Assembly: GCA_021234155.1 (NCBI GenBank)
Contig: JAJEKV010000237.1
Span: 593,251-657,250, forward strand
DNA length: 64,000 nt
Reading direction: 5' to 3'
Source: Isoetes taiwanensis
Lineage: Eukaryota; Streptophyta; Lycopodiopsida; Isoetales; Isoetaceae
Shown: positions 929 through 62,925 of the stretch, piece after piece
Layout of the letters: every line of letters starts with the position of its first letter
How positions within the stretch are numbered: the first letter of the stretch is position 1
The notes under the pieces: generated by a model
Databases searched by the model: none
Seen by the model: the letters and a program-made list of their open reading frames with translations, nothing else
What the model was told of the DNA's origin: nothing
Position numbers and translations under genes: made by a program

Positions 929-2782
929 ATGGAAAATGATAAGGACAAAGTAGAAAATAAGAACATCAGCCAAGTATTGGATTCTGAACCTGATGAGTTA
1001 AAAATGATTGCAAAAAGAATGTCTGTCATGTCAGATATCGAAAAGAGGAAATTGGTACAAATTCTGAAGGATTGGGACCTACAAAAAGACAGAATGCAGC
1101 GGGCAGTAATGATGAAACTAATGGGGAGAGAATAGAATAGAATAGAATAGAATTGTTTTTATCGTCCACGGAGAGAAAGGGAAAGGAAGTTGAAAGGGAC
1201 GCAGATAATCTGGTGGCTTTTGGTGACTTCTTCATGTACCTGTCGGACTTAGAGCCGGAGAAGACAAGTGCAATTCCTATAGACATGGTGGCGACGAGAC
1301 AACAGATGGGGATATGAGCTGTTCAAAGGCAGCAAAATATTGTCAAGCCAACTTTGGAGAACCTGAACAATCTGCAAGAGGAGGAGGACGGGATTGATGT
1401 GCAAAAAACCAAGCATGCATTTCACGGTAAAATTCTGAAAAACCCGTTTGTGGAAGCAAGATTAAAATAGATGGTGAGTCGAGCAGTGATTGGCTGTGTT
1501 AGGCATGAGGGAGTGAAACTCCCAAAGCTAATTGAAAATATCTCTATTTCTAAGATTTATTGGCTTGATTTCCCTTTCTTCATTGTGGAATGTGGGAACG
1601 AGATCTCTGTTAAAATGCTCCTCAAGCAAGACACGATTACGAGAGTCAATATCCAAATCTTTTTTCAAAGATGGTACCCGGCCTTTGATCCTCAGGATAT
1701 TAAGCAGCTCTTCCATCCTGCATGGACCTCAGTCCAAGGCCTCAGTCCAATCTATTGAAGTGAGGAAATTTTGAGGAATATCTTCTAGGAATTGGGGGAC
1801 TTCATTGGTGTGGAGGCCATGCCGGATCAACCCCCGCGTGTTTGGGTCCAATTAGATCTCCTCAAGCCAATTCCTGAGAGAATTGATTACTGTGATTACT
1901 TTGGCCTTCAGAAATGCCTCCCTCTGCAGTGGAGAGGAATCCCTACTCCTTGTAGTACCTGTGGAATTCGGCTGCAGGTAGCGGGGTCTGTAAAGGCTTC
2001 ATTGAAAAAATGCCAAATTGGATCCTCCAAATCCATGGATTACTCCATATAAGAAACCTTCTCCTACCTTTAGGAAGCAAAATGTTAATGGTAGTGTGAA
2101 GAGAAAGGCCCGTAAGCAGAGGATTAGGGAAGAGCGTGAAAGGGCAGAACAGGCACAATTGACTCAGAAAAAAGGAAAGATGACTTGGATCCGGAAGTCA
2201 GATGAACTTCCCGGGAGTGTAAAAGTCCTAAATCGTGGAATTATAATTAAGGAGACAACATTGAGGAGTGAAGCTTTGTCTGCTACCCCCTCTCCTGTTC
2301 TGGAGAAAGGTGAATGCTCTCATGCATCTAAAGTAAAAGCCACTGATTTTCCTATTCAGAACCTTTTTCCTGGTCCTGACAACAAACCACAATTGGAAGG
2401 CATTGGTGAGCTTCACAATCAACAGCCAATGCCTTTGATCCGTAATCCTCAGGTTGGAAATCATGGTGATGCTGGTGAGCTTATAAAGCAACAGCCAAAA
2501 TCTCCCAATCATGTTGAGCCTTCTGTCATTAGAGAGAGCTCAAAAATCCAGGCTGCTGATCTTCAGTCTGTTCAAGATACTCATGTTGATCAAAGTATAG
2601 AATCTACTGTGGATGACACTCTGGAAGGGGTGTACCCAACTAATGACCTAGTCATGTCATCCCCTGCACAATCTGGACTTGATGAATTTTATACTCCACA
2701 AACATCTAAGAAAAAGCACAAGAAAATGGTCCTCTTCAATTTGGATGGGTCTGCCTCCAATACTAGAAACAAATCTTCATGA
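929..2782 (+). pseudogene. LINE-A ORF1, gag-like RNA-binding protein
   Basis: ORF1 starts at ATG 929 with an acidic/lysine-rich segment that runs to 1135, where a 37-bp solo retro-tail has inserted. The reading frame resumes in pieces. Positions 1471-1758 resemble the DUF4283 fold of plant LINE ORF1 proteins. Positions 1792-2052 continue it with LLKPIPERIDYCDYFGLQK and a PTPCSTCGI cysteine motif, a partial zinc knuckle. Positions 2018-2782 encode a hydrophilic, low-complexity C-terminus of about 250 residues. At least three frame changes separate these pieces. In the family this protein coats the element RNA. The stop overlaps the ORF2 start in ATGA (2779-2782). Confidence 0.75.
1133..1169 (-). 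mobile_element. 37-bp solo LINE/SINE 3' tail
   Basis: A minus-strand fragment that reads GTGGACGATAAAAAC followed by ATTCT repeats. It sits inside LINE-A ORF1 and is bounded by an 8-bp direct repeat, GGAGAGAA (1125-1132 and 1170-1177). The sequence equals the extreme 3' end of the LINE copies near 33.3, 42.4 and 61.6 kb and of the SINE at 26.2 kb. It is best read as a retrotransposition event truncated almost to nothing. It post-dates LINE-A. Confidence 0.7.
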
Positions 2783-7388: not shown

Positions 7389-7442
7389 GGATTATTTTAG
7401 ACCCCTATTTTTCTTTCTTAAGAAAAATTGTCTGTTTACTGT

Positions 7443-7499
7443 AACTATAGGGTGGCTCCCCACTTGTTACAGTGGGGGATCTGCCATAACCCTATAGTT
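7443..7499. repeat. 57-bp hairpin
   Basis: Outer arms AACTATAGGGT (7443-7453) and ACCCTATAGTT (7489-7499) are perfect reverse complements. Inner arms TCCCCACT (7457-7464) and AGTGGGGGA (7471-7479) pair with one extra G. It may be a tiny foldback element or an RNA hairpin. I see no target duplication. Confidence 0.6.
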
Positions 7500-7813
7500 T
7501 CTTTTTAAGCCAAAATCATATATATACTACAATATTTCAGAGATTTGAGATCGTATCTTTAGTATTCAGTTTCAACATAGGAAAGCATGGTCAAATGGCA
7601 TGCTATCATAATTTTTCGGATTCTCATCGCATAGCATGGTCAAATGGCATGCCAGCATAATTTATTTGTAGTGACTTTCAATTTTGAAAAGTTCACACTA
7701 TAATCATCGATTATCTCCTTCAATTTGTAATCAATTCAGCATAGAATAGAATACATATACCAAATATCACTTGTCATGCAAAACGTATTTTTTATACCTT
7801 TTGCACAAGTCTG

Positions 7814-7915
7814 TCATGCAATTTTGTTGGCACCACATCTAATTGGACCAAGATCCTTGTTCCAGATAGGTGGCAAAAACTCCAGGTTGTACTCAACTTG
7901 AGCATCATCATTATC
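7814..7915 (-). pseudogene. Candidate terminal exon of unidentified gene X
   Basis: On the minus strand an acceptor (ATTTCAG) is followed by 33 open codons and a stop. The peptide contains the phrases YNLEFLPPIWNKDLG and IRCGANKIA, which look like real protein sequence, but I do not recognise the family. It lies in the same orientation as the exon-like pieces at 8639-8738 and 9122-9167. It could be the last exon of a gene fragment trapped between R1 and R2. No start or full gene is visible. Confidence 0.35.
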
Positions 7916-8638
7916 CTGAAATCATATCATCATTATCATAAAATCGTAGGATCATTCCCATTAATCTTTTCCCAAAGTGTCAAGTTTTGCTCAATTTACT
8001 ACCAACAGATAAGATGCATCACTGGTAAGACCAATGAAATGAAATTTCTAAAAAAAACCCTGGAACAACTAGCCTAGGCAACAACCAACTAGCAGTCTAA
8101 GCTACATCGGTCAATCCCTCAGTAGCCTTATCATTCTGTACAATTAATCGAGCAGACTAAAAGACAGTGCATCAAACTGTGGTCCAAAGTCTATTGACTT
8201 TAAATCCCTTAAGGTCATTTTTCCATTGTAAATATACCAGTCAAAGCTCATATACATTATATCATGCATATTGACAATCTGTAATAGAAAACTATTGTAT
8301 TACATATTTATGAAGTCACCTTACATCCTTTCATATACTTTGCAGTCAAAGCACATCGCAAAATTTAATGTACAGACCTGGATGCAATACTTTCCTTTTG
8401 CATTTGGTATTTTCAGTTACCAAACCATATCTAATGCTTGAAAGTAGCAGCATCATAACAGCTAGTCTTTGCCCTAGTAATTTGCAACTCAAAGTCTTGG
8501 AAAACTTGTGATCAACTAGCCAGTATTGGCAGTTACATCCACGCGCTTTTTTCTTTATCCAACATACGTTTTAGCTAGAACACACCATAACAGCAAAGGA
8601 GCACAATGAGAGAAGAAATACCACGTACCTGCAGCCAA

Positions 8639-8738
8639 CCATGCAAACATTAGCGATAGTCTCGGTAATGATGCAAGGGCCAAAAGGTACTTTGGGTATT
8701 TCTTGGCTTTTCGCCTCTCACCCATTGTACCTTTTGCC
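8639..8738 (-). pseudogene. Candidate internal exon of gene X, copy 1
   Basis: Bounded on the minus strand by an AG acceptor and a strong donor CTGCAG|GTACGT. A related segment with the same acceptor and donor context occurs at 14640-14748. The arms CAAGGGCCAAAAGGTAC and GTACCTTTTGCCCTTG form an inverted repeat across the exon, so an RNA hairpin is an alternative reading. One frame is open over the whole piece. The coding frame cannot be decided and the family is unknown. Confidence 0.3.
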
Positions 8739-9121
8739 CTTGATTAGTAACAGCTTAATAAGAATGAATGAATAAAAGAAAAAAAGCAAACCAGAACATT
8801 TCACATATGTTAACCTTTTTTAGATGTGCGCTTTGGCATCATTAAGGTCTATTTATTCACTAAAAAGTCTGCCTTACTGCTTAAAAACATGTCAAACAGA
8901 CTATTTCGTATCATATACAACCTTGAGAGTTAGGTAACTCTTATCAAGATCCTTATTTTAACTCACTTGTACTCTGTTTATATCATCAGAGATGCTAGAT
9001 GCATATACATCATGGTATAAATATAGGCATCGAAAATAACTTAATGCCAGCATGTAGTAAGAGGCTTTTCCTAAGCTCATGTATCATGTATTAATCTGCA
9101 ACTAGAAACACAAAGAAATAC

Positions 9122-9167
9122 CTGAAGTTTCCCTTCATCGGCAATCAAGTGTCCATCTAAATGTGTC
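9122..9167 (-). pseudogene. Truncated exon-like piece of gene X
   Basis: The minus strand reads an open frame (HLDGHLIADEGKLQ) up to a donor CTTCAG|GTATTT. Its 5' side is cut off exactly where repeat R2 begins at 9168, which suggests the R2 junction broke this exon. Function unknown. Confidence 0.3.
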
Positions 9168-9935
9168 TTGGACAAACTGTCGAGAACTTTTAGCTCAAAA
9201 CTTTTGCTAGAAATCGTGGCTAATATTTCCAGAAACTCTGCACCTCTTTGGCCTTGGATAGATATTTTGAAACCGCCATAGTTCTTTTAATCTGCATCTC
9301 ATCCCATCATTCCGGCTTTGCCACTGTGGCCGATTGTGGCAGATTGGCTGCTACATCTGGAATGCTTCCTCTTTTTCTCAGTTACGTGTTGTGGCAACAA
9401 GGATCTTGCCGAAACTGTCTCCAAGCGCATCTCCGGGCGCATGCATAGGCCGCAGGCAGCCGTAAATATGAAAAAACGTAACCCAAAAACGAATTTTGCC
9501 CATATTTTTGTTAACCTAACATTTAGAGCATTATTATTGATGGCTCTAATTTTTATTTTGTCTATGTATTACCATATTTAGGTGGTCTTTCTCTTTTGAC
9601 CTATTTTGCCTTATCTTAAATTTTTCCACTATATTGACCAAGTTTTCTGCCTTAGGCCATTCATAGATTCTTTCCAAACAGATTGAAAATGCCTTATGTA
9701 GGCACTTGCAGAAGCCCAAGGTTCAAGTTGTTTTTCAAACTATTGGCTAACCCAACAAGCAGCATGGGCATGCCCTATGCTTTATTACAAAGCTAGGCAT
9801 CTGTTTACCATTTCTTAACTCATAGGCATATAGTGCCCTACTAAATTGATTTGAAGATCATTCCCAATAAGTTGGATTTGCTTCATGCAGGTTATTCAAG
9901 GCACATTTCTGTTCTGCATTTTTTAACACTCGTTA
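9168..9935 (+). repeat. Direct repeat R2 (second copy of LINE-A 3' end plus flank)
   Basis: A near-identical copy of 6491-7388 without the 145-bp tandem duplication. Only the extreme end of the LINE ORF2 is included, so this is not an independent full LINE. It is either a segmental duplication or a 5'-truncated insertion that carried flanking DNA. Confidence 0.85.
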
Positions 9936-10957
9936 ATACATGCACAAGTACTTGCTGCCATAAAATTACAGCTCTTAGAAAAAATGGCATAACTCTCTGT
10001 AGGAAGCTCTGTTTTTCTATTAATTATATGTTTCGGAAACGGCAACATATGCTCTACCATTTCAAGTAAAAACAGTCTGATTTTAAAAAAAAATGCTGCA
10101 TCAAGAATTGATTTCCGGAATCAGACCTAAATGCCCTTACCGCTTTCAAATGAAAGTTTGTGATCCAAAAGTTTATTCCTAAGATCTGTAGCCACATAAC
10201 AGGATGATTTAGGGAACAAAAGGCCACACCTGAGAAGTGTTCTTGATGTGGGCTTTGTCCAAAAAAAAGGCTGGCTTATATCGATCCATAGCGCCTCATC
10301 ATGCTACGCCTCATCATGCTAAAGCTGCCGCTTTTGCTATGCATCGGCAAGGTTTGTGCCATCCTGATCATAGTGCTTATGAAATGAAGCAGCAAGAAGG
10401 CGCTCTCCTTGTCTGCCGTTGAAGAGAAGAAAGGATGCCACAATGGTGATAACTACCTCCATTATCAGCCATAAAATAGACATGTCTTTTTTATAATATA
10501 AATATAAAATTTCAAACCTACATGGTCCATTTTTGCAAATGACATTTGAGTCCCATAAAATATTCTAATTTGTATAATTGAACGTGCTTTCTCTTGTGAA
10601 AATGAATGCATGCAACCATTTTTTAAAAATGAGACACTTGGCAAACATGCCATGCCATCCCATAATTAAAAAGTAAGTGCTTTTCTATAAATTTGACATA
10701 CCTTGTTCTAAGGTCTCATAAGATCAAACTGATGCGATCTATTAAGCAATAGGGTCAACATACAATGTTTTCAAATAGTAGTATCTATGTATTCCAATAT
10801 TATTCCCAAACATAAGAGAAATAAGAAAAGAATAACATTTTGGAGCCAAACGTGCACAACAAGTTTTGAAAATGTGCACAACAAGTTTTGTGAATATGGC
10901 ACATGCTCCACCACGTACCTGCTTGCACATGCATGTAGCCATCTTGGAATATCATTT
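9936..10957. other. Non-coding stretch
   Basis: No supported gene. It contains a short tandem (about 10286-10321, ACGCCTCATCATGCT twice) and ends in a 17-18 bp A-run at about 10967. A CCACGTACCTGC phrase near 10912 is shared with the gene X exon donor region at about 8631. Confidence 0.4.
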
Positions 10958-10983
10958 AATCACAATAAAAAAAAAAAAAAAAA

Positions 10984-11364
10984 CGAAGCTACAACTAATT
11001 ATCTATAGAACATTCGGAACTAGGGAATCTCGACCCCGTTCAAAAAGTTTACAGCAACTGATAGATGAAGAAAAAAGATGGGCAGAAGTTTAGACAGTCT
11101 CGACTCTACCAAGTTATACGAGCAAATTTCCGCAGAAGACGTGGATATGTAAAGAGCAAATTACATGTTCTCTTTTAGATGCAGTTCATGGAAGCTACTT
11201 AGGATCAATCAGATTTTTGTGGGGACCATAGTCGATCTCAAAGCTACATGATTCTGCATTGATTAATGATAAGCTTCAATGGATCAAATTTGGCCATGAG
11301 TAGTACAAATTCCTATAACTGTCTTTTGGTCATTATGGAGTGGAAGCTGAACATGAACCAGAAA
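10984..11364. repeat. Repeat B, copy 0 (ancestral-looking copy)
   Basis: Begins after the A-run with GCTACAACTAATTATC and runs to CCAGAAAAGAAAAGT. The same block occurs at 12510-12894 and 16206-16589, each time right after an A-run. Here it continues into unique sequence that leads up to the LINE-B target site, so this is probably the source copy. Confidence 0.8.
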
Positions 11365-11957
11365 AGAAAAGTGATTTGTGAAACGACTTTTGTGAAATGC
11401 ATGACCCATTCCTTTCTCTATAAAGAAGGAGTCGTTCTTTAAAACAATTCTCTGAGATTCATCCTTGAAAAGAGATGCTTTCTTGAATGTAAGCTTATGA
11501 TCCTTCAAATCTGCAGAGACAATGTCCAAACTGGTCAAAAAAACCAACTTCTACAAAGTCCAAAATGGTGATGATAGTTTATTCTTATTGAGTATATGCC
11601 CAAAAGATTCTCTTTATCCCAATATGTAATTACACTCGATCATCAAAACAACATTCACATTACCCATTTTGTTTGTTGAAGGGCACAGCATATGGTGAGA
11701 CATCAGTCATCTACTTCTCCTATCCAATGGTAATTAATAAGCGGGCGAAAGCCAAACTAGAGAGCTAACCATAGGCTACACCATGATGGGCATATGGCAA
11801 CAAGTTTAAGCCATCCATTTTTCTTCTACAACTTTGATTGCATACCAGGTTCTTTATTCATTTTTTTTTTTGATGAACGTGGACCTTTATTACTCAAAAG
11901 AATACAAAGAGTACATGGGGGACTCCCTTGATCCTTTAACCTTTTGTTTAAACCTTT

Positions 11958-12476
11958 AACCTTCAAATTATGTATTTATTTTTTTGCCATTGTATCTATA
12001 CAATGGACTTTCAATGTTTTAAGAACAACTTCTAAGGTTTAATGCCATTTATTGCTGCACTCATGCCATGTACGCCTTGAGGAAAGAACCTAAGAAAAAC
12101 ATAGTATTTCTCAACATGTAAACATAAATGTATTGGTCGAAATTTCCATTGCTGCCTTGGCAAAGGGTTTTGGTTTGGCTCCACAAAGGTTTTTACCCAA
12201 TGCTGCTTAAAGCCAACATGTTTGTCACACTATAGCAATTGAAGTTTCTCAAGGTAGACCTTTATTTTCAATTGAACCAACCGTTAAATAAACATACTGC
12301 TCATTTCGTTTCAATTTTTCATTTGGGCTCAAATAATTCTCACTTGCTTTTTTTGGGGGTTGGCGATCATATTGCATTTTGGCCTTTTATGGCTATTACA
12401 AAATTCATTTCCTTAGCCCTTATTTGCTAAGTCTAACAATCCTTTTTCACTTGCTGCAATGCATGGCATTTACTTA

Positions 12477-12513
<37 letters not shown>

Positions 12514-14182
12514 CAACTAATTATCTATAGAACATTCGGAACTAGGGAATCTCGACCCCGTTCAAAAAGTTTACAGCAACTGATAGATGAAGAAAAAAGA
12601 TGGGCAGAAGTTTAGACAGTCTCGACTCTACCAAGTTATACGAGCAAATTTCCGCAGAAGACGTGGATATGTAAAGAGCAAATTACATGTTCTCTTTTAG
12701 ATGCAGTTCATGGAAGCTACTTAGGATCAATCAGATTTTTGTGGGGACCATAGTCGATCTCAAAGCTACATGATTCTGCATTGATTAATGATAAGCTTCA
12801 ATGGATCAAATTTGGCCATGAGTAGTACAAATTCCTATAACTGCCTTTTGGTCATTATGGAGTGGAAGCTGAACATGAACCAGAAAAGAAAAGTTATACC
12901 AAGGAGTTGAAGTGTCTAAAAAAAAACCCAGTCGAACCTAGCATCCTAGGTCTGACATCAATCCTCGGTCAATCCCAAGGATTGTATTATCAACCCAGAT
13001 TCAAACTTACGTAAGAATTATCTGGTACTTATTGTCCTTTAGCCACAAGAACCTTTAGAAAATTTATCAAAACAAGTTACAACGTATCACTTTTCCTTCA
13101 ACAAACAACAATCACGTAGTTACATGGTCCAAAGCCTGTTTTACATAAAACATATTGAACAATTGTAGTCCTAAGCCATCGAATACCATTTTTCCTCAAA
13201 CCCAGCGTCATTTTCAGAGTGCAGCATGATAAATATACTTTCATATAAGAAATAAAAGCCTTACAAGCCCTATGATCCAAGCTCCATGGTCCAAATCTTT
13301 TCTTGCACAAATGCAAAGTCACATGTCCTTTAGTCTCTTATAGTTCAATGGTCTCCATGTCTATCTGACACTTCTACAAATATGTACCAGACAGTATCAC
13401 ATATGCATTTTTGCAAATGCTATATGCCAATTGCCCTTAGCATGACTAATTAAAGATTTAGTTTCCATATTTGGGGCAGAAAATAGTCTAAGAATAGTTG
13501 TTAGTTTCAAATAGAGCACGGAATCAAGTATATTGCATGGTACGTTTGCATGCAGGCGTAGGCCTTGCATGTCGAAACATGAACTTCTCCTATTCCTAGT
13601 TTGAACTTTTAGAAATCTTTACCTTTCTTGTTGAAAGGCAGTTGTTTAAACCTTTAACCTCTTGATCTAGTTTTCATATCCTCAGCATTTAGCCCTACTG
13701 GATAGTTACCTCGATCTATGATGTAGCATGCGCCATGCACCAGCTAAAACCATTCTTTGACAGTCTGCATGTCAAGTGTGCAGTTTATTTAAAAGAAACC
13801 TTTTGCTCTTTTGTATTCTAAACCTGCATAGTACACAATTTTTGCATGCAACTTTCTTTCATTCTGTCCTTTTCTTTTTCAGCATACATCGTACCCTTTT
13901 ATGTTATATCCACTCTTTATTAGATTTCAACTGTTATGCATGCCTTTTCCCACAGCAAGACTATTATTTATGTAGTTTTGTATTTACATTTTTAAGCTGT
14001 TACACTTTACAAGTTCGAGACATTTCTGTGGCTATTTTTGACATAATACATGTAAAACGTGTTTAAACAGGAGTCACTGCATGCACACATTACTTAACAT
14101 TTTTCCTTACTGCTCCAGACGGCCATGTATTGAACTTTATAGCACAATCATATTAACAGCCATTTATTCTCATTTCTAATCC
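11958..14182 (+). repeat. ABC direct repeat, copy 1
   Basis: Starts AACCTTCAAATTATG and ends CATTTCTAATCC. It contains block A (to an A-run of about 30 at 12479-12509), block B (12510-12894) and block C. Short ORFs inside it are duplicated in copy 2 and show no protein signature. Confidence 0.85.
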
Positions 14183-14639
14183 ACGGATGTCTGTTTAACA
14201 ACAGTGGTTTATAATATCCTATGGCCAGCCCGTGCCTTATAGATCTCTTAACTTTTTATGCAGACTATTTCCTAGATATTATGAGTCATCATACAAGAAA
14301 ATTCAATTTTCCACACTTGTATTAGTCTTGTACAAACAGTCACAAAGCCATTAATTTTTGTATCACCGTTTTACCACTATGGATGCAAGCAAAAATTCTT
14401 CATTTAAACAAAAGGAAGGCAGTAGTTACCTCTATCTCAGATAGAGTTTTACTTACATATGCTAATCCACAGTCAATCTAAATTAATATAACCTGTTGGG
14501 AGGATCTTGAGATATTTTTTTAACACAAAAGCGTCTTCATCTTGTATATCTTCAAAAATTTGCTCCAATCCAGGTTCAGATCTACCACATCCAACCAACA
14601 AAAAGCAAGAAAAAGACAAGGGCAGGAGAGGTCCGGTAC

Positions 14640-14748
14640 CTGCAGCCAATCATCAAAACTTTAGCATGATAATGGTAAAGAATGAAGGGCCAAAAGGTAC
14701 AATGGAGCCTCTCGGTTTATAACCGATCAGCCCTTGTATCCTTCTGCC
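14640..14748 (-). pseudogene. Candidate internal exon of gene X, copy 2 (degenerate)
   Basis: Aligns by eye with 8639-8738: same acceptor side, the shared stretch GTACCTTTTGGCCCTT, and the same donor CTGCAG|GTACC. Stops interrupt the frame that is open in copy 1. It therefore looks like a decayed paralogous exon. Confidence 0.35.
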
Positions 14749-14908
14749 CTGTTAGTAGAACATGACAGATCTGCATTTTTCTTTAACAAATGTAAATTTA
14801 GAAAGTGAATGTTCAAACAGAGGGTATAAAGTGAATGTAAAAAGCACTATCAGCACAATTTTATATCCTTCTTGCTGTCTGGCCCAACTTTTTATAACCA
14901 AATGTTAC

Positions 14909-15105
14909 CTGGATTCGTTCTGGTCTGAAGCACAATCTTCGGGCATTTGTGTTTCAGGATTAGTAAGGTCTCCTTTATCCTTGTTCCAAGAACCATTAAT
15001 GTGCAAGTCTTTGGCTCCAAAATTGCCCTTCTTGTTGCTATAGTCACCCTTGAATGCATTTGCTTCCCTCTTTGATTTTGCATCATTATTCTGCATTTTC
15101 CCATT
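14909..15105 (-). pseudogene. Candidate exon of gene X, hydrophilic segment
   Basis: Minus strand: acceptor GCTTACAG, 65 open codons plus 2 nt, then donor ATCCAG|GTAACA. The peptide is Lys/Asn/Asp-rich with no motif I can name (for example NDAKSKREANAFKG). It lies upstream of 14640-14748 in the same orientation. It may be coding, or a chance ORF between consensus sites. Confidence 0.35.
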
Positions 15106-15665
15106 CTGTAAGCGCCCCCAGGGCCTTCGGATCAAGGGAGTCCTCCTCCTTACCTTTGCTCACTTAATGCCTTATATTCAGACTTAAAGCTAGAAGGTCT
15201 GCCGTCTGATTTTAATTACCATTCCATGCTTCAAAAAGAGCAGGTTATAAATCGTGTAAGCTTTCTATAAGTGAATAACCTATTCCTGCAATTTTGTAGG
15301 CTGTAGGCTTTGACCCGAAATATTCAGAGTAAATCTACCATGGATTCAGTTACCTTGTGACTGGCAGTCTTTTCCATGCTTGAAACAGATGTACTGCCTG
15401 TGATTTTTGGATAGCTCCTTCGTGTTTAACTGCTAGATGTTCCATGCCATCACTGTCGACTAGGGTTAGGTAAGCTTTTCGGCCAGAAGACTTAGCGTAT
15501 TTATTGTTCCCATATACCACTTATGATGAAACATTAGAAAATACAGAAAGATATACATTTCTAGAAGTTATATGGTCATAGAATTTCACCTGGTTTATCT
15601 CATCATTGTTATTCCATTGCATTACGCTCAGCATTTACCGAATCCTATCAACATGTGTCATATTC

Positions 15666-17874
15666 AACCTTCAAATTATGTATTTATTTTTTTGCCATTG
15701 TATCTATACAATGGACTTTCAATGTTTTAAGAACAACTTCTAAGGTTTAATGCCATTTATTGCTGCACTCATGCCATGTACGCCTTGAGGAAAGAACCTA
15801 AGAAAAACATAGTATTTCTCAACATGTAAACATAAATGTATTGGTCGAAATTTCCATTGCTGCCTTGGCAAAGGGTTTTGGTTTGGCTCCACAAAGGTTT
15901 TTACCCAATGCTGCTTAAAGCCAACATGTTTGTCACACTATAGCAATTGAAGTTTCTCAAGGTAGACCTTTATTTTCAATTGAACCAACCGTTAAATAAA
16001 CATACTGCTCATTTCGTTTCAATTTTTCATTTGGGCTCAAATAATTCTCACTTGCTTTTTTTTAGAGGTTGGCGATCATATTGCCATTTTGGCCTTTTAT
16101 GGCTATCACAAAATTCATTTCCTTAGCCCTTATTTGCTAAGTCTAACAATCCTTTTTCACTTGGTGCAATGCATGGCATTTACTTAATTAAAAAAAAAAA
16201 AAAACGGCTACAACTAATTATCTATAGAACATTGAACTAGGGAATCTCGACCCGTTCAAAAGTTTACAAAGAATGATAGATGAAGAAAAACGATGGGCGA
16301 AGTTTAGAGCGGTCGACTCTACCAAGTTATCTGAGCAAATTTCCATGAAGGCGTGGATATGTAAAGAGCAAATTACATGTTCTCTTTTAGATGCAGTTCA
16401 TGGAAGCTACTTAGGATCAATCAGATTTTTGTGGGGACCATAGTCGATCTCAAAGCTACATGATTCTGCATTGATTAATGATAAGCTTCAATGGATCAAA
16501 TTTGGCCATGAGTAGTACAAATTCCTATAACTGCCTTTTGGTCATTATGGAGTGGAAGCTGAACATGAACCAGAAAAGAAAAGTTATACCAAGGAGTTGA
16601 AGTGTCTAAAAAAAAACCCAGTCGAACCTAGCATCCTAGGTCTGACATCAATCCTCGGTCAATCCCAAGGATTGTATTATCAACCCAGATTCAAACTTAC
16701 GTAAGAATTATCTGGTACTTATTGTCCTTTAGCCACAAGAACCTTTAGAAAATTTATCAAAACAAGTTACAACGTATCACTTTTCCTTCAACAAACAACA
16801 ATCACGTAGTTACATGGTCCAAAGCCTGTTTTACATAAAACATATTGAACAATTGTAGTCCTAAGCCATCGAATACCATTTTTCCTCAAACCCAGCGTCA
16901 TTTTCAGAGTGCAGCATGATAAATATACTTTCATATAAGAAATAAAAGCCTTACAAGCCCTATGATCCAAGCTCCATGGTCCAAATCTTTTCTTGCACAA
17001 ATGCAAAGTCACATGTCCTTTAGTCTCTTATAGTTCAATGGTCTCCATGTCTATCTGACACTTCTACAAATATGTACCAGACAGTATCACATATGCATTT
17101 TTGCAAATGCTATATGCCAATTGCCCTTAGCATGACTAATTAAAGATTTAGTTTCCATATTTGGGGCAGAAAATAGTCTAAGAATAGTTGTTAGTTTCAA
17201 ATAGAGCACGGAATCAAGTATATTGCATGAATGCGTTTGCATGCGGTATTAGGGCCTTGCATGTCGAAACATGAACTTCTCCTATTCCTAGTTTGAACTT
17301 TTAGAAATCTTTACCTTTCTTGTTGAAAGGCAGTTGTTTAAACCTTTAACCTCTTGATCTAGTTTTCATATCCTCAGCATTTAGCCCTACTGGATAGTTA
17401 CCTCGATCTATGATGTAGCATGCGCCATGCACCAGCTAAAACCATTCTTTGACAGTCTGCATGTCAAGTGTGCAGTTTATTTAAAAGAAACCTTTTGCTC
17501 TTTTGTATTCTAAACCTGCATAGTACACAATTTTTGCATGCAACTTTCTTTCATTCTGTCCTTTTCTTTTTCAGCATACATCGTACCCTTTTATGTTATA
17601 TCCACTCTTTATTAGATTTCAACTGTTATGCATGCCTTTTCCCACAGCAAGACTATTATTTATGTAATTTTGTATTTACATTTTTAAGCTGTTACACTTT
17701 ACAAGTTCGAGACATTTCTGTGGCTATTTTTGGCATAATGCATGTAAAACGTGTTTAAACAAGAGTCACTGCATGCACACATTACTTAACATTTTTCCTT
17801 ACTGCTCCAGACGGCCATGTATTGAACTTTATAGCACAGTCATATTAACAGCCATTTATTCTCATTTCTAATCC
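15666..17874 (+). repeat. ABC direct repeat, copy 2
   Basis: Repeats 11958-14182 about 3.7 kb downstream with small differences: a shorter A-run near 16190 and several indels at 16220-16350. It ends exactly where LINE-B sequence resumes. Confidence 0.85.
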
Positions 17875-17879
17875 TTTAA

Positions 17880-20530
17880 GGAAGAACACTTGTACGCCTT
17901 CACAATGCGACTACGGACATCGCTAAGCACTTGCGTATCTGAAAAGAGCTGTCCCTTGAAGATGAGGAGATTTCATCTCTTCCAGATGGACCAGATGATC
18001 CAAGCAGATGCTAAGTGGAAAGCCCTCTTTGCCAACTTGTCCCAAGAGCTAGGATAGACTGACAATAGGACCTGTTGACTATTCAAGTCACAATGGAAAA
18101 GACTCAGAAGCCACTGCCAAGCAAGTCGAACATGGTGACACAAGAAAAAGCAGTGCCAATTGTCTCATCCCTCTGCCGGCAAAGAGGGCAAATCTCAGAG
18201 ACTCCTGGACGAAATCGATGAACAATAGTGTTTACCCGCACGCATCTATGAGTGATCTGCCACCATAAAATGGATAGCTTAGGATGAAGCAATTTATCCC
18301 ATACCCATCGCCAGACTGCTTTACGATGAGGCTCGGGGATAACTAAAGGTCACTTTGGCGATGGAGGCAACACCTCAGGATGAAGCAGGACCACATACAT
18401 CAAGTGCACCAGGTGCTCCTCCTTAACACTGCCATGAACCACCCAGAGCTGGGGAGCCACGTCTTGTGGGTGTGGAGGAAGCGTAGCAGCTACTTTTTCC
18501 CAAATGCCCCGGACCCAACGAAGGAGAAGGAACTTCAATCACGTGAACTATCTTGTCTCATTATACCATGCAGATACCGTGAGCACACCTGCTGCTCGCC
18601 ACCGACGTTGCGTCAATGGATGGACAGAAGAGACCAGGGGACAATCTGCCTGGCCGTCACCCAAAGGGATCCACCAACAACGGGCTGTAGGATCTGTGTG
18701 GGCCATTGGATGGAACTGAAACAAAGTGCGCACAGTCTCCCAAGCAGCTAGCAACCCCTTGAGGAAAGGAGCTGCATTAGGATATGGAGAAAGTGGATAG
18801 AATAATGCCCATGGGAGGAGAGGCTTAATGGATGGAGAGCCAAAGGAAATGCACATCTGTAAAGACTGGTGAATGAGACGCAGACCTGGAGAATTATCAG
18901 CATTATTGAGAATCCGCCATATGAACTTAGAAATCAACACCTTGCTCTGGAGAAGAAAGTGAATCATCCCCAGCCCCCACAAAGTTTAGGCATAATGCAC
19001 TTCGCCCAACTAACTTTAACATCAGCTCCTTCTTCAATGCCACCCCAGATGAAGTTCCTGACAGTACGAACAATGAGCTGCATCTTTGTCTGCGGTGTCA
19101 GCAAGATGGATGCCATGTAGACATGTGTACCACTCAAAACTGACTTTGCCACAGTTACACGACCAGCCATGGATAACTTAGCCGTGGACCACCAGAACAA
19201 ATGTCTTTTCAACCCCTTAATAATGACATTCAGCGTCTCGGATGAGAGGTGTATACCAAGCTGGAATGCCTAGAAGTTTAGTTGCCTTCCCATGAGGAAG
19301 AGCCTTCTATGGAAATGCAACCCACGGAAGGCGGCCTTTGGAGAGTCTAGGGCCTGAGGCGATACACTTTTGCCATCCCACAAAGATACCGAAGCCAAAG
19401 AGAAGGCGTCCAACAAGGAAATGGCATTCTCGCAAATTACGCTCATCGCCATTAAGAACAAGAAAGTGTCATCGCATGCCGATTCTGGATCTCTTGTGAA
19501 CCATTATTCATGGGAAGACCATGCGGGATGCCTTCACGCACCTTGCATGAAGAATACGAGAAAGAATCTCCGCCACAATTGTAAAAGCGGTGGTGCCAAG
19601 GACAGACCCTAGCGAATGCCACGTCCCACGAAAAAATGTTGATGGTTCTCTTTGAAAAGAACTGAAGAACAGCGAGAATAATGAAGTTTCATAACATTTG
19701 TTGTGGCTGGGCACCAAAACCAAGCGTAAAGGCCTTTGCTCCAGGGAAACTCCGATCAACAACTTGTCATATGCTTTTGCAAAATCCAGCTTCAAGTATA
19801 CAATGGGGTAACCATGCATTCTAGCCCAATAGAGATCCTCATATGCTGCTGCCACATTATTCAAGATACATCGGCGAGGTAAGAAACCTGACTGCGTGGA
19901 AGAGATGGACTCGGTAAGCATGCCACAAAGCTTCTGAGCAAAAGCTTTAGCAAAGATCTTGTACACTGAGGACAACAAAGTAATGGGGCGCCAATCTGAA
20001 ATGGAAGAGGGATCCTTATATTTTGGAATAAGGGAGATGCAACCAGAGTTGAAGATTTTGTCCAGAAGCTCAGCTGGATCTGAAATAATACGCCCATCCT
20101 GAATCTGCAGAGACTGAAGAGATGCAGCTAGCTTTCTTGTTTTGGCAGCTCTGAAGAAAAAACCTGTGCACCGGTCTCCCTTCTTGAACCATTGCAACCC
20201 AACCTTAATGTGAGCAAAGTGCACCTATTCAGATTCCATCTGCCGAATGGTATACAAAATTTGCTTCTCCACATGACCATCTGATGGGGCAACAGACTTG
20301 CATGCCTCAAGTTGTCGATAAAAGCCGTGAGAAGGCTCTCCGGTTAGCGAAGCCCGTTCCCGACCCCAACCTTTAGCAAAAGACTTCCGGCGCAGCGAAG
20401 CGAGCATCAACAATACACGCCATGCTTGTGTGTCGAGAGAAAAAGTGAACCGCGTCGTCTCTGACCCGCCAAAAAAATCATCATCCTTCAAGAAAAATTC
20501 TAAGGCGGTAGTGCACAAAAAAGAGTGTCA
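17880..20530 (-). pseudogene. LINE-B ORF2, RT and C-terminal part
   Basis: Read on the minus strand from 20530 leftwards: a linker after the endonuclease, then RT blocks. These include CISLIPKY, SDWRPITLL, YLKLDFAKAYD and an altered catalytic box near 19470, where ACDDT stands in place of Y/F-A-D-D. Post-RT sequence follows (SMAGRVTVAKSVLSG, about 19170), and a zf-RVT-like C-terminus (ICPLCRQRDET, about 18190). The motif-0/1 region (GKSPGPDGF in LINE-A) is missing, consistent with an internal deletion near 20050. There are many frameshifts, so no enzyme is made. Confidence 0.85.
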
Positions 20531-26049: not shown

Positions 26050-26170
26050 ACATTTGTTCACAATAGGTTGAGGGTGTGTGCCACTAATATTTACAAGGTG
26101 AGATATTTAATTTGTGTCTTGAGCACTTGATATGCTTGCAGGTGTGCCATCAGAGTCTTTACGTGTGCCA

Positions 26171-26290
26171 ATAAAAATAAATGTATTTTTATCGTCCACG
26201 GAGACAACGTGAGAAGTGGAATTTGAACCCACGCCCTCTTTCAAAGACCAGAACTTAGTGCCAAGATCCATTGAGCCATAATGGAACCCT
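26171..26290 (-). mobile_element. Short tRNA-derived SINE with LINE-type 3' tail
   Basis: The minus strand has a pol III A-box-like TGGCTCAATGG and a B-box-like GGTTCAAATTCC at tRNA spacing. It then has GTCTCCGTGGACG, an A-run and a TTTAT tail. A 7-bp direct repeat TGTGCCA flanks it (26164-26170 and 26291-26297), giving a 120-bp element. The tail equals the 3' end of the LINE group represented by LINE-C, -D and -E. The acceptor stem does not pair well, so this is not a functional tRNA gene. It has no coding capacity and would depend on a LINE RT. Confidence 0.7.
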
Positions 26291-26325
26291 TGTGCCATTA
26301 GTAAGCTGTCTACTTTGTATAAGAG

Positions 26326-26407
26326 AAAGACCTTTTGCTTGCCATTCTGGGCTGTCAAGTATGCCTCCGCACCGTTGACAGCCCAGAATGGCAAGCAAAA
26401 GGTCTTT
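26326..26407. repeat. Perfect 33-bp inverted repeat with 16-bp spacer
   Basis: The arms are 26326-26358 (AAAGACCTTTTGCTTG... to ...GGGCTGTCAA) and 26375-26407, exact reverse complements. The spacer is 26359-26374. It lies 36 bp right of the SINE. Perfect arms mean it is young or maintained, possibly a snap-back duplication. Confidence 0.95.
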
Positions 26408-33224: not shown

Positions 33225-33337
33225 AGGGGTTTTTTAATCCTAGTAGTAATGATTGTACTAGCCCATTGTATGGGTCCCATGACCTATTGGTCTCCGTGGA
33301 CGTTAAAAAAACTATTCTATTCTATTCTATTCTATTC
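33225..33337 (+). mobile_element. 5'-truncated LINE 3' end with (TATTC)n tail
   Basis: Starts GGGGTTTTTTAATCC, which matches the minus-strand LINE-C 3' region near 33750, then ATCCTAGTAGTA, GGTCTCCGTGGACG, an A-run and five TATTC-type units. About 115 bp. It belongs to the group of LINE-C/-D/-E and lies in the opposite orientation 275 bp from the LINE-C tail. No clear target duplication. Confidence 0.75.
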
Positions 33338-33600: not shown

Positions 33601-33699
33601 GAGAGAATTTTAAGGAAGGAAGGAAGGAAGTATATTTTAACGTCCGCGGAGGCCAAACTTGACCTATGAGACGGTACATGCAGTACACAAAGCAGATAA

Positions 33700-36600
33700 A
33701 ACCACACCAAAAAGACAAATGCTACTATACAATGTGTCCCTACTACTAGGATGAAAAAACCCCCACATGGGAGGAAAAACCCTGGTAGTAGGCTCTCAGA
33801 TCCCTTGTCCTGTAAGGGATTCTCTAATGGTAGAGACTTGCAAAATGTAGGATCGCGAGGCGTGCAACCATTGGCGATGCCGACAATTGATCTGCCGGTG
33901 CCTCGAGCATCTAAGATCGGCATGTGTTGCTTTCGGATATGCGTATATCTTGGGACACTCTTACGAGCATGGTGCTCATCCTCTCTTGTCGCATGTGGCA
34001 ACAGCGGCATATTCTCTCATCTTGGGGATTCTCGCCCTCCATCGTAGTCCAGCGACTGTTTCAATGCGAGATGATGGGACCCGTCCTCCACGGAGGCAAT
34101 AGCTCTCCGTTTCTTCATAGATATATGCGCTTTCAAATGCTTGGTGTGGGCCATGTTCGGTGTTGGATTAACTGCGTGTGGTAGTGCTCTATTTTTAGGC
34201 TTTTTGCAGTGGTTGCATCCGCGAGTGGTGGCAAAGCGCTCATTGGTGTGTGCGGACCTGTCCACGGGCATCGGGCATAGCCACAATCTGGCGGTAGTCT
34301 ATAGACCCGCGTTGCGAACCACCCACGGGCGGTGCTCTGCCATACCCTCTTCGGTCGTTGTGGCTCTTGTGCCAATAACAAAGCCCTCGGGGGCGGCGTT
34401 GTGCATCCATCTTTGGTGACCTTGTGGAAATATGCAAGATATGCGCATATAGCGGAATGTTGCGGGGGCGAACCCGGTCTCATATAGCAAAATCGATAAG
34501 GCACCCGTGCCCTTGATACCTAGGCGTATGTTAAGAAGGCCTTTTGCACCCTCTCTAGCTTATCGGTGTTCTTGCTAATTCTTTGGACCCCAAACCTCTA
34601 CCCATACAACAATCTTTGGTTCAGCGAGTGCTCACGAGCAGGTGTGCTCTCGTGCCCGATCACATAGGTCTAATACGTAGCGGCTATTGCGCATAGCATC
34701 GGGGGGCTTTCCATCCATAGCGGCCCGATCTTTCCACCACGGTCATCCCATAACATGCTAAGCGCCAAAGTCGATTCGGATACTTGAAGGTCCTTACAAC
34801 ATCCACTTTTCGTCCCTCGTAATAGAGATCACGGGATATCATCTTTGCGAGGAGAGGCTGCCGGGGAGCTTAGTTTTTTGCCGAGGTTCGCGAGTCATTC
34901 TGTTGTGTCCGCGAGAACCCACTAAGGCGTCAAATCTTTCTTTGCATACTCACGGTTGTATGGGATAGCAAGTCTACATCATCGCATAGAGCAATTGCCT
35001 TATCTTGTATGCCTCACGGTATTTTGTGGGGCCGCCCCCATGTTCTTGCATCAAGTCTCCAACTTGTCAATGTAGAGACCAAAGGCGTTGGAGATACGGA
35101 CATCCCTGTTTAACCCCTATGGTGCTAGCAACTTCATTCGATCGATCGCGCGGGCAATGCCACATATATCCCATCATAGAGTCTATAAATGACATTTTGT
35201 AAGTCTGTGGGGCATCACGGCGCTTTGCAAATCTTTGCCACAGCAGTCAGAGGGACCGTATCATATCGAATCTTGAAATCTACGAAGCGAAGTATACAGT
35301 CCGCCCGGCGCATTGCAGTAGCTTCCATAAGGATTAGAGTGAATATATGGTCGATTGTGGAGTGGGAGGTGGCGAAACCCGCTGGCCAGCTGCCGCGCCT
35401 CTCGGCTTCCATTGCCCGAGGTTAACTTCTTCTCCACCACACGCTAAAAGCTTTGCGGTAATGGGCTCACCATGATCATCGCGGTGGTTAGCGAATCATC
35501 CACGTTTTTGTCTTATGAATTGGGGTGACCTTGCTAACCATCCACTCTCGGGAGGCCCTCCCTTATGGCTGGTTAATAATTTGTCGGAGGCCCTAGCAAA
35601 GGCTGGCCCACCCCATTTCAATAACTTCGGCAGAAGTCCCTGCAAGTCCTTTGCTTTGCCATTAGCCCGGTGTCTAAGGCCTGTTGGATGTCTTCCTCGT
35701 GGTGCGGCATTTCTCCTACGTCACGGAACCGGCTTTTGCTCACGGGGGATCATCTGGCTCCTCCAAGCGATGCATCCAGCGGTCTCACGGTAATATTGCG
35801 GGTGGTTGATGCCTCTTGTACAACACCCTACGCCCGAAGGCTTTTGGCTCGATCATCAACAAATCAAACATGCGGCTGGCGATAGTGCGCAATATGCGCA
35901 TGCTTTTTGGATTTCAAGAATGCTCTATAGTCTGAATGGCTTTGCTGCAATTGTGGATCACGAGGCGAGGCGTAGTTGGGTCTTTAGAGCCTTGCACTTT
36001 CGGCGTCAAACCGGGGATTACGAGGGAAGCAGCGGTGTCCATTCGCGGCGATCCCTGTTGCAAAGCATGCACTAGGCTGGCGTGAGTAAGGCATTTACAA
36101 GCCATTCCCACCTATCATGTAGCGTGCAAAGGGCATCAATCCCCTGCAGTTCGCGTTCCAACCACGGAACTCATATTACGCTTGCTTTTCGATAGTGGGG
36201 ATGTATCTCAACCCCCGATGGTTTCTACTACGTGATTTAGCTCTTGAGTGCTCCCAATCCAAAGTGACATAAAGTGGATAGTGGTAAAGACAAAGCCTCC
36301 TCATCTCTGTTAGGTGTGCCAATTGAGAGCTCGTGATCATGTCAAGTCCTACCCTTTGGAGCAAGGAGATAGTCTACTACGCTAGCTCCACCATCATGTC
36401 TATCGCTCTTGCAAGTAAAACCCACGATTGCGGCCATCTGATCATACCATTGCACACTACCATGTCAAAGACGGCGAGTTGAACCAACTCCCTTCAAAGC
36501 GTTGGTGGTGTATCTTGAGGCCATGCGGCATGTTGGGGTGCGGTTGTTTCAAGCGAGAATGGGTCGAATCGGCCTCTCCACGGAAGGTAACAAGGCTGCG

Positions 36601-37103
36601 GTATGCGGTCGCGGGCATTGAAATCTCTAACAAGAGCACATGCCCTTCTTTGGCGATCTTGCTCTATGTCATCATACGGATCTCGTAAGGCATTTGTACA
36701 TCCGTAATACGCCTCACGGACTGGTAGAACTTAGAGGCTGCATGGGGTATATAACAACATGCAATAAATAATGAGCGATCTTTGAGGCTCGGTATTCTCA
36801 CCCACGGTGGCGGTTAAGTCATCGACCTTGTGGGGCGAGACCGTGGCTGCTATAGCATCTTTGAAGTAGCATGCCACCCCTCCATATCCTCGCTTGCCAT
36901 GGCGGCGCATTAGCGGCGAAAGCTTTGGTATCCGGGATGTCCGGCGGTGATGCCCACGATATTCCCATGTCTCTTGCAAGAAGATGATGTCCATACGTAG
37001 CGATCCCAACAAGGCCCGCCCTTCTTCGGGGGAATCCCCTCTGAGTTCCATGATACAAGTCGGGGACTTTGTCCCTATCTTTTTTTGTGGCGGTTGTCTG
37101 CAC
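33700..37103 (-). pseudogene. LINE-C ORF2 (endonuclease and RT)
   Basis: The endonuclease region (36731-37100) has DIIFLQETWE and a GVACYF block. The RT is badly fragmented: a piece near 35920-36110 includes VIPGLTPKVQGSKDP. The catalytic box near 34974-34992 has lost one base, so Tyr-Ala-Asp-Asp is no longer read in frame. A Cys/His-rich C-terminal segment lies near 33850-34000. It would have carried out target-primed reverse transcription. This copy cannot. Confidence 0.7.
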
Positions 37104-37107
37104 CAGC

Positions 37108-38390
37108 TCAGGAGGTTGCGGGGGCGTTCAGTGGTGCCGCTGCTTGGGTCACGGTTGTTGCATCACGGTTTGCCATCTCGGAGGTGAAAGGTCTAGATGT
37201 CCACGGCCCCATCGCCCCATTTGCCTCGCGCTCTTGTTGGCGCGGAGGTACAAACACCTTCATCTTGCCATTAACCAAGCCTGCCGATCCCCCCTGCTGT
37301 CGACTTGCGATTTTTGTGAACTCCTCGTCTCTCCTTTTGTTGCCTTTGGGTAAGATCGTGTCCAAGTATATTGATGTCCCCTTCAATAGGCTGGCGCATT
37401 GCGGCAATAGAGTCTTGGATGCACGGTCCAACAACGTGAATTTGACCGGTCGGGGTCTCATGTTTGGCCCCAGGCTACGGTGGGTTTCTCACCCCAAATC
37501 TGCGGTTGTAGCTTTGTCGGCACCGGGGCATTAAGCTTAGCCGGCGGATCTTCCCCATGATCTTGGGCAAGCCGGGACAATGAGGTTCAGCCCGGCGGGA
37601 TTGGCGATCCTGCTCCTCATGCGAAGGACGCACGATTCCACGGGCCACCTACGCCTCGGCATTGAGCGCCTTGTTGATCTTTGCCTCGGGGCGTGCACAT
37701 TTCGTTTCATCTCCGGCGGAGATCATACATCTCGGTGAAACTTCGGCCATCCTCTTCTCTGGGGCGAGCACGGGTCTTTGCTTCTGTCCTTACGGTTTGT
37801 CTCTTTTCTAGGGTGTCCAACCTTGCTTGCATCTGATGCATTCTAGCTTCATGGTCCATAAGGCAAACTGCGGTAGCCAAGCTGTATGTCTGTTCCCTTT
37901 GCTTGCACGCTCTCTCTGCGGTTGTGATATCTCATCGTCACTGCTGATGGATCCTATCAATCATTTGGGTAACCTCATTCGGTGTTTGAGATGTTGCCAT
38001 GAATTCACTTCTTAAGCGGCGACAATACCCGTGCTTATTTGCGCTCGAAGTCGGCCAGCCAAAGCGGTCATTCAATGGCGCTTTTGCTCTTCTAATGTGG
38101 AGATCCGTTCTCTCTCCTTCACCAAGCTGTTTCTTGAGGATGGCTCTTGTTGGTGGGTGTCTCTTTGTGCCTCCATACTTGCCAACCTATCACATGCTTC
38201 TTTGTCAACTTTGCCTCCAAGGCTCGTATATTCTCGGTGCGTGACATGCTCGAGGGAGAGGAGCCCTCTCAGTTCGTGCTTTCGCTTCTTTAGTGCATGC
38301 GGCTTTTCTTCCATTGTCTGGCGAGAGTCCGCGTCACTGGGTCATTTAGAGTCTCACTCTTTGCAAGTCGAACACGAGACCAAGTCTATT
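37108..38390 (-). pseudogene. LINE-C ORF1 with coiled coil
   Basis: 38072-38314 (minus) is a charged heptad-like coiled coil (CDRLASMEAQRD ... SLVKERERISTLEEQ). 37108-37461 contains LLKGTSIYLD, the counterpart of MLKGTSLYVNRDLT in LINE-D ORF1 and of a conserved step in L1-type ORF1 RNA-binding domains. The order coiled coil then RNA-binding domain is that of L1 ORF1p. Several frameshifts. Confidence 0.6.
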
Positions 38391-42446: not shown

Positions 42447-42699
42447 TAGGAAGGAAGGAAGGAAGGTATTTTTATAGATCCCACGGAGACCAATCGGTCT
42501 ATGGGACCCAATACAAAAGCGCGACAAGCGGATTACTACGGTTAAAACCCCCTCCCCTCAGGAAGGGGTTTCGAGGAAAAATCGTGACGACAATCAGCCT
42601 GGCGACAAAGCGATCAATATACAAAATGCAAAAACACACAAATATATACACTCATGCCGCACCCGTAGTGCTGATCGGCGAGGCAGGCAGCGAGCGGGG

Positions 42700-61605: not shown

Positions 61606-62925
61606 AGAATAGAATAGAATAGAATAGTTTTTTATGCGTCCTTTGAGACCATCGGCTATGGGACCCGGAAGGGCCTTGACAAACTATTCTTGTCAGGGTT
61701 AAAACCCCGCCGAAGAAGGGTTTTGAGGAAAAAGCGTGGCGATAATAAGAATCTTTGTCAGCTATAAGTATACATCATCATGAAATAAATGTGTATGTAC
61801 ATGTAAAGTCGTGCCCGAGGACATAGCTGATCTCGCATGTCCATGACATGACTCCCTGAAGGTATGATCCCAGCATCCAGATGCGGATCTTAGTGCTCAA
61901 ATGTCACATGTAGCGTGAGTGGGGCACGACCAGCTTCGGCATAAGCGTCGGTTGATCATATATCTTTGGCAACTTTGAAGGGTATGAGATTCATCCTCGT
62001 GGCTCCCATTTGGCGACATTGGCCGCGCTTTGTCTGGCGTGGCTCTACCAATCCATCACTTTGTCTCAGTTCCGAAGATGATGTGCCCCTATGCGAATGG
62101 AGGCAATGAGTCTGCGTCTTTTCATGGGCAAGTGGGTGCCTTGCGGGTAGCATTGTGGGCCTCGTTCAATGTGGGATTTATGTGGCGCTGGTAGTGTGTT
62201 TGTCTTGACCTGTTCAGGGCGCTGGCATCCCAAAGCTTGCTGATGAAGCAGCGTCAGATATTACCTCAAGCTATGGCGATCTGCCTCTGTTTGCACATGT
62301 ATGCTTTGTGCTCTGCACATTCCATCTAACCCATCCATTGAGCTCTCTTTTCCTAGGCATGCCTTGGCGTTGTGGCCCATTGCCGTGATATAAGCTAGTT
62401 TTGGGAGGCAGGCATCAGTCCATGTTGACCTTATGCGGAAATAGACAATGTATGTGGCGATCAAGGGTAGCCCCTCACGAAGAGCAAGAATCTGTTTCTA
62501 CTTGGTAGAATTTGATATGGGGTTTGGACTTCACCCCTGGTGCTTCATTACCAAAGAAGGCTTTACACTTTTGCTCCCAAGTCATTCAAGTAGCGAGGAT
62601 ACTCTTTGGGCCCCATACTTCAACCATTATAAAGGGCGGGGCTCCACTTAAGACTTTGAGCAGGGTGTGGTGATGGGTCCAATCATACAACTAGCTCTAT
62701 GACTATTGTTTTGCATTGCATATAGTGCTTTCCGGCCGTAGTAACTTCGTAGCCGTATGGATGTGTCGGTGCATAGTAGGCGGAAACTCACTCCCAAATA
62801 TTTTATGTGGATGCTGCTTCCACGTTGCGCCCTCGATAGCGGAAGGAGGGATCCTGCTGTTGTCGTGAAGATGATATGAAAACCACCTTAGTCTTGGCCA
62901 GGATTGGCGTGCATATCGGTTAAAC
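61606..62925 (-). mobile_element. LINE-E, 5'-truncated LINE with (TATTC)n tail
   Basis: Tail of TATTC units (61606-61626), A-run, GGTCTCAAAGGACG, GGGTCCCATAG and the 3' UTR hairpin, as in LINE-C/D. Only the end of ORF2 remains: the RT thumb (KIFGSEFPPTMHRHI, about 62750-62810, equivalent to YKYLGVEFPP of LINE-D) and the C-terminal region. Sequence at 62040-62160 aligns by eye with LINE-D 42900-43020. Truncation point near 62925. Confidence 0.75.

Follow-up and report, generated by a model that had tools for sequence, protein, structure and literature searches.

On the minus strand near 26.2 kb of the 64-kb window (the whole stretch of DNA that we analysed), a tRNA-like stretch passes into TTGTCTCCGTGGACGATAAAAATACATT and then into T/A-rich sequence. 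The inserted piece is about 77 bp long and has two parts, 48 nt of a tRNA-Leu(CAA), running from its anticodon up to the acceptor end, and 29 nt of a LINE tail, which lie between blocks of older host sequence as follows.

26257..26301, minus strand: pre-existing host sequence with the A-box-like TGGCTCAATGG (26268-26278), insert-free in five paralogous sites
26209..26256, minus strand: inserted 3' part of tRNA-Leu(CAA), which starts inside the anticodon and reaches the acceptor end; with adjoining bases included, it agrees with a tRNA-Leu gene at 47 of 52 positions
26218..26229, minus strand: B-box-like GGTTCAAATTCC inside the tRNA-Leu part
26180..26208, minus strand: inserted LINE 3' tail GTTGTCTCCGTGGACGATAAAAATACATT, whose 26 nt from GTCTCC to ACATT are identical to the LINE end in locus L034
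26155..26179, minus strand: right-side pre-existing host sequence, including TGGCACA (within 26162-26171)

The tRNA-derived inserted sequence reads AAGTTCTGG...TTCTCAC; it starts inside the anticodon, carries no CCA and is followed by the LINE tail in the same orientation. Because the tRNA genes go on with ATT and the LINE loop also reads ATT or GTT, the junction between the two parts is uncertain by about three bases, and the 3' limit of the inserted tail against the T/A-rich host sequence is likewise uncertain by a few bases. Rfam scored the putative element as tRNA at 15.4 bits, below the cut-off of 29 (E 0.58 for 111 bases), and ARAGORN called no tRNA gene in the window.

Five paralogous sites, on contigs C1082, C113, C1078, C952 and C1063, keep the flanks without the insert. 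Two of these empty sites came from the genome search with the putative SINE, in which only the 5' half and the flanks matched, and three more were fetched; all are paralogs, as opposed to the orthologous locus in a relative. In all five (L027, L028, L136, L137 and L138) the A-box half runs on uninterrupted, with neither the tRNA nor the LINE part. In four of them it is followed by TTGGCACT (GTGGCACT in L136, TTGGCATT in L028) and then by GCTTTATCTCCTTACTGGCA, which has one base changed in L137, while L138 is more diverged. The A-box-like TGGCTCAATGG is exact in three of the five sites and carries one change in the other two, and TGGCAC-type repeats occur in the empty sites with small variants. 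The insert-free paralogs thus show that host sequence accounts for the A-box half, for the TGGCAC-type repeats and for most of the T/A-rich stretch. The initial annotation had described a tRNA-type SINE with an A box, a B box and a 7-bp target duplication, the last not spelled out there and taken here as TGGCACA. Of the two boxes, the B-box-like GGTTCAAATTCC does lie in the insert, whereas the A-box-like TGGCTCAATGG is older host sequence, and a SINE with both boxes was dropped for the reason that its A box sits in the empty sites. TGGCACA as a target duplication was given up on the same ground, as the repeats were already host sequence there. The element illustrates how a tRNA fragment, combined with an A-box-like stretch and a repeat of the host, can mimic a complete SINE. 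Comparison with the five empty paralogs revealed no target-site duplication at the chimera and suggests that a few bases were lost there.

The joint absence of both parts from the five empty paralogs points to a single event. Two adjacent insertions, in which a tRNA-Leu pseudogene fragment came first and a tail-only LINE then landed at its 3' end, would draw on a common process, since tail-only LINE insertions make up 11 of the 100 tails that we sampled (see below). Yet the two parts adjoin with no clear extra base at their meeting point, no duplication is seen, the tRNA part lacks a separate tail, and neither part stands alone in any of the five paralogs; we consider this succession of insertions very unlikely.

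The upstream part of the insert has its source in a tRNA-Leu(CAA) gene family. Tandem arrays matching it lie on contigs C1078, C1071, C931, C307 and C1088 (most of loci L004-L026, L029 and L030), with units often about 440 bp apart and with many degenerate copies. Identity between the insert and the tandem genes is 88-92% over 51 nt, and many genes match those 51 nt only. ARAGORN named tRNA-Leu(CAA) in four of the five array loci scanned, with L026 called tRNA-Arg, and found no tRNA gene in L002, L003, L027 or L028.

We searched the genome (1,658,258,908 bases in 1110 contigs) with the putative SINE, and at full length found only its own locus among the 40 scored of 79 candidates, in a search that skipped common words and could miss diverged sister copies. 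The junction itself, expressed as GTGGGTTC followed after 0-30 bases by CTCCGTGGACG, has four exact matches in the genome, namely its own locus, a duplicate on contig C1041 and two plain LINE ends; the pattern was exact, so diverged copies could be missed. The inserts in the window and on C1041 are identical at 77 of 77 bases, and the duplication that encloses them has flank identities of 99% and 96%. Among the scored candidates and with the exact pattern, the tRNA-Leu head was found next to the tail nowhere beyond this one locus and its segmental duplicate, and at no unlinked site, an outcome that the initial annotation had named as refuting its SINE. The C1041 near-copy is interrupted by another insertion, about 15 kb long, with the ends GGGTGTTTTTTTGC and ...AAAACACACCC and with GGCA on both sides (by eye, near 1915 in L036 and near 7395 in L035); this insertion resembles a DNA transposon bounded by terminal inverted repeats. 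The LINE tail in L133 directly holds the same start as this insertion.

These results bear on the reading as a genuine tRNA-derived SINE family with a partner-LINE tail, of which the 26.2-kb copy would be a 5'-truncated member. Such a family would account for tRNA-derived sequence directly before a LINE tail, and other A- and B-box-like heads on the same tail, in L141, L147, L148 and L146, speak in its favour. However, the junction is confined to one locus and its segmental duplicate, inspection by eye of the 90 nt upstream of 100 listed tails showed no tRNA head, Rfam (E 0.5 or 2) returned no tRNA in 17 truncated-tail loci, and both the A box and the claimed duplication belong to the host, all of which makes the SINE family highly improbable. 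The tRNA part is a fragment that begins at the anticodon, and the classification as a tRNA-type SINE is abandoned. We conclude that the 26.2-kb element is probably a one-off chimeric LINE/tRNA-Leu(CAA) retrocopy.

The tail 13-mer GTCTCCGTGGACG lies at 26193-26205 on the minus strand, and a second exact copy is found at 33290-33302 on the plus strand. With up to two mismatches allowed, the 13-mer occurs five times in the window, where shuffled sequence would give 0.30; the occurrence at 34085-34097 is internal to LINE-C and is not a tail. The window contains these further LINE ends.

1154..1175, minus strand: tail-only LINE insertion, about 22 nt and five ATTCT units, absent from the list in the initial annotation
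33272..33302, plus strand: LINE 3' end with exact GTCTCCGTGGACG, then (ATTCT)n; a truncated copy that resembles the sampled TTAAAAAAACTATTC subfamily
33641..33673, minus strand: LINE-C 3' end, GCCTCCGCGGACG, (TTCC)n
42477..42509, minus strand: LINE-D 3' end, (TTCC)n
61637..61666, minus strand: LINE-E 3' end, (ATTCT)n

The element, LINE-C, LINE-D, LINE-E and the fragment at 33.3 kb had been said to share the same ending, made of the tail and an A-run. The agreement is exact at 33.3 kb, but the endings of LINE-C (GCCTCCGCGGACG, two mismatches to GTCTCCGTGGACG), LINE-D (GTCTCCGTGGGAT) and LINE-E (GTCTCAAAGGACG) differ, and the window LINE tails run into (ATTCT)n or (TTCC)n instead of a plain A-run. 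What holds good is that the tail derives from a LINE family also represented elsewhere in the window, and that tRNA-derived sequence stands directly before it at 26.2 kb. The tail-only copy at 1154-1175 has a possible 8-bp duplication, TTCTCTCC, seen by eye.

We assign the tail to a LINE because RVT_1 is found upstream of it in L046 and L053 (54.9 and 39.1 bits, the C-terminal part of the reverse transcriptase) and because LINE-C holds an endonuclease domain (Exo_endo_phos, 26.6 bits, in the open stretch 36734-37162 on the minus strand). Reverse transcriptase and endonuclease were both found upstream of the tail, but in different copies and in no single intact one. LINE-C, LINE-D and LINE-E show mutual protein similarity, and stops interrupt all three. 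Naming the LINE clade was given up, since the reverse transcriptase piece of L046 matches both R2 and L1 ORF2 chains, too little to name one. The 19-nt tail pattern GTCTCCGTGGACGNTAAAA has 10,318 exact copies in the genome (5161 forward and 5157 reverse), its reversed control has none, and one scan of viral contigs for the tail gave 0 matches. A search with the LINE-D region 43300-44900 gave 4382 candidate places in the genome, 40 of which were scored. Remnants of another LINE group lie in the window at 3817-6308 (plus strand, with zf-RVT in 5766-6308) and at 19508-20224 (minus strand, with RVT_1), and the two regions share protein similarity.

The four window LINE ends fold into a two-part hairpin with z from -0.21 to -3.07 in single folds, and a joint fold of the four copies contains eight predicted pairs, one changed on both sides and two broken in one copy each. 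A hairpin at the LINE 3' end is plausible, the folds supporting it weakly. We then asked where LINE copies stop relative to this predicted structure, using as a sample the 100 listed places among the 10,318, which follow contig order and are not random. Similarity to other copies reaches more than 95 nt further upstream in 62 of the 100 sampled tails, and in 11 of the 100 the LINE sequence reaches no further than 11 nt 5' of GTCTCC, so these copies stop in or next to the predicted hairpin loop and inner stem. From the 38 copies with an extension within 95 nt of GTCTCC we took 30 truncation events, leaving out by eye L083 and L071 (internal deletions), L117, L049 and L064 (diverged), L093 (5' inversion), and L044 and L128 (duplicates). 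Eleven of these 30 events fall in the first 12 nt, against 3.75 expected if they were even (p 0.0006). The 5' inversion in L093, as seen by eye, starts at the hairpin. Direct repeats of at least 6 bp flank 11 of the 27 truncated copies tested, compared with 10% of mismatched flanks; in the 11 shortest copies a mismatch-tolerant repeat score was 0-8 in ten and 13 in L092, and the null contained no value of 8 or more. L092 is bordered by a 13-bp repeat seen by eye, but was rejected as a clean insertion proof, its own flanks being repetitive; the 16-nt near-repeat scored there is different from the 13-bp repeat. Two local arrangements of tails were also seen: L043 and L044 (C1:768591 and C1:807073) are two tails that lie 38 kb apart and share their upstream flank, which marks a local duplication, and L104 (C19:300649 and C19:300813) holds two oppositely oriented tails separated by 164 bp, of which one is tail-only.

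The LINE part of the chimera ends in the same stretch as these 11 sampled tails, which would place the jump point in the predicted hairpin loop. In the chimeric retrocopy that we favour, a LINE reverse transcriptase would have begun at a chromosomal nick or break with the 3' end of LINE RNA as its template, would have copied about 29 nt until it reached the loop of the LINE 3' hairpin, and would have changed templates there. The new template would be a tRNA-Leu(CAA) RNA, most likely in the form of a precursor or of a CCA-less 3' fragment. This RNA would have been copied back to the anticodon, where the cDNA would have been joined to the chromosome, perhaps with help from a 3-base microhomology (ACT). 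Most likely, the LINE enzyme stops or jumps in the hairpin loop while it copies its own RNA from the 3' end. The main alternative, which we judge unlikely, is that RNA ligation came first, so that a tRNA 3' fragment and a broken LINE RNA were copied as one template. Ligation is one of the two routes named in the cited text for mammalian U6/LINE-1 chimeras (PMC13174262), both parts are in the same orientation here, and the same product would be left; however, simple truncations cluster at the LINE breakpoint too, a pattern that is consistent with pausing and jumping and requires no cut RNA.

The same tail also carries other tRNA-like heads. A B-box-like GTTCRANNC lies within 30 nt of TCTCCGTGGACG at eight places in the genome, in a search which itself favours junctions near the tail; the window element is not among the eight, its last base differing. 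Four of the eight (L141, L146, L147 and L148) have an A-box-like site at tRNA-like spacing, compared with none of the 35 other B-box-like sites in the fetched loci, a difference whose p of 0.0006 is post hoc, as the spacing rule was written after the heads were seen. L147 and L148 were followed up by genome search, while L141 was assigned by likeness to L147 only (82% over 51 nt) and L146 by its box sites only. The head of L147 is a repeat with 252 candidates in the genome; of the 40 that were scored, those other than L147 are 83-88% identical. It runs on as CTTTTATAYAAAAGTTGC in four natural copies, whereas in L147 CACTTTT is followed by TGGTCTCC; the missing remainder was not seen in some 60 bases inspected beyond the tail. 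The head of L148 is an 81-nt element that ends in CAACTTT and is followed by the LINE tail from GTTGG on, and its ends were matched at ten other places with 94-100% identity, in addition to a near-duplicate of L148 on contig C929 and 21 more distant matches. The heads of L141, L147 and L148 all have A- and B-box-like sites and are joined to the tail at or near the predicted hairpin loop. A and B boxes follow a consensus, and a T-run acts as the Pol III terminator. The three junctions are what copying of a U-ended Pol III RNA onto the LINE tail in the hairpin loop would leave; alternatively, a tail-only LINE could have inserted into a Pol III-like element whose end was later lost. Rfam (E 0.5 or 2) found no tRNA in the eight B-box places and no convincing one in L147 and L148 taken alone, ARAGORN called no tRNA gene in L141-L148, and a clean target duplication was shown for none of the L141, L147 and L148 heads. 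A large SINE family with a TT(G/T)TTGG tail was considered and dropped, there being 28 such places, eight of them read (L068, L118, L141, L143 and L147-L150), against 10,318 tails. The idea of a tRNA-type SINE with a LINE tail thus fails for the 26.2-kb element but gains some wider support from the four of eight B-box places with an A-box-like site, and similar Pol III-type/LINE fusions may be present elsewhere in this genome.

Tentatively, we raise the possibility that the 3' hairpin is a hot spot for stops and jumps, giving rise both to tail-only insertions (the 11 in 100) and to occasional fusions with Pol III RNAs (tRNA-Leu here; the tRNA-like heads of L141, L147 and L148, which end in a T-run). 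If this is true, the genome keeps a record of failed SINE births, each with a Pol III head and about 30 nt of LINE tail, and a successful SINE could arise from such fusions, which are of the kind from which new SINEs are thought to be born. The gain of partner-LINE 3' ends by SINEs is often explained by template switching, the first step of which is hidden by amplified families. Unamplified fusions of Pol III RNA and LINE tail at one structural point would open this first step to direct study in a plant.

Related chimeras are known from other organisms. In mammals, the cited text of Law and Burns (2026, PMC13174262) describes 21 tRNA/LINE-1 chimeric loci with half tRNAs and a breakpoint near the anticodon, mostly of the tRNA 5' region (1-37 nt) in antisense, with duplications of 9-19 bp in eight of eight checked; tRNA halves, according to the same source, arise by anticodon cleavage. 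As in these loci, a half tRNA with its breakpoint near the anticodon is fused here to a LINE 3' part in one apparent event; unlike in those described (PMC13174262), it is the tRNA 3' part, in sense, with no duplication seen, joined to another LINE with a predicted 3' hairpin, and in a plant. The Magnaporthe elements WEIRD/MGL and Mg-SINE/MGL combine a small RNA or a SINE with LINE 3' sequence, and switching near predicted hairpins was inferred there (PMC2104539); the fusion of a small RNA to LINE 3' sequence is alike, while the MGL parts given in that source measure 230 to 5461 nt against about 29 nt here. SINE/LINE pairs listed by Ohshima (2013, PMC3747384) include TS/RTE in tobacco, ZmSINE2-3/LINE1-1_ZM in maize and SINEX-3/L1-1_CR in Chlamydomonas, with a 3'-end hairpin reported in the maize and sorghum case. 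These plant and algal pairs (PMC3747384) likewise join a tRNA-type head to a LINE 3' end, but they are families sharing about 50-100 nt, whereas our chimera reflects one apparent event and about 26-29 nt. In passerines, de novo emergence of a SINE has been described, in which a different tRNA head was gained by suggested template switching (PMC5729268); there too a tRNA head was put on a LINE-mobilised element by a suggested jump, the difference being that the passerine product was amplified. The best-ranked literature titles and abstract openings mention no chimera of this type from a lycophyte, a result that argues only weakly for its absence.

Two neighbouring features of the window deserve mention. 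A foldback at 26326-26407, some 25 bp away from the chimera's host flank, has perfect 33-nt arms (26326-26358 and 26375-26407) around a 16-nt loop and a copy in the C1041 duplicate. In form it is similar either to the precursor of a plant miRNA or to a very small foldback transposon; its Rfam miRNA matches are weak and all below the cut-off. Large direct repeats occupy 6491-17552, with spacings of about 2.53 kb and 3.7 kb and with identity of up to 100%.
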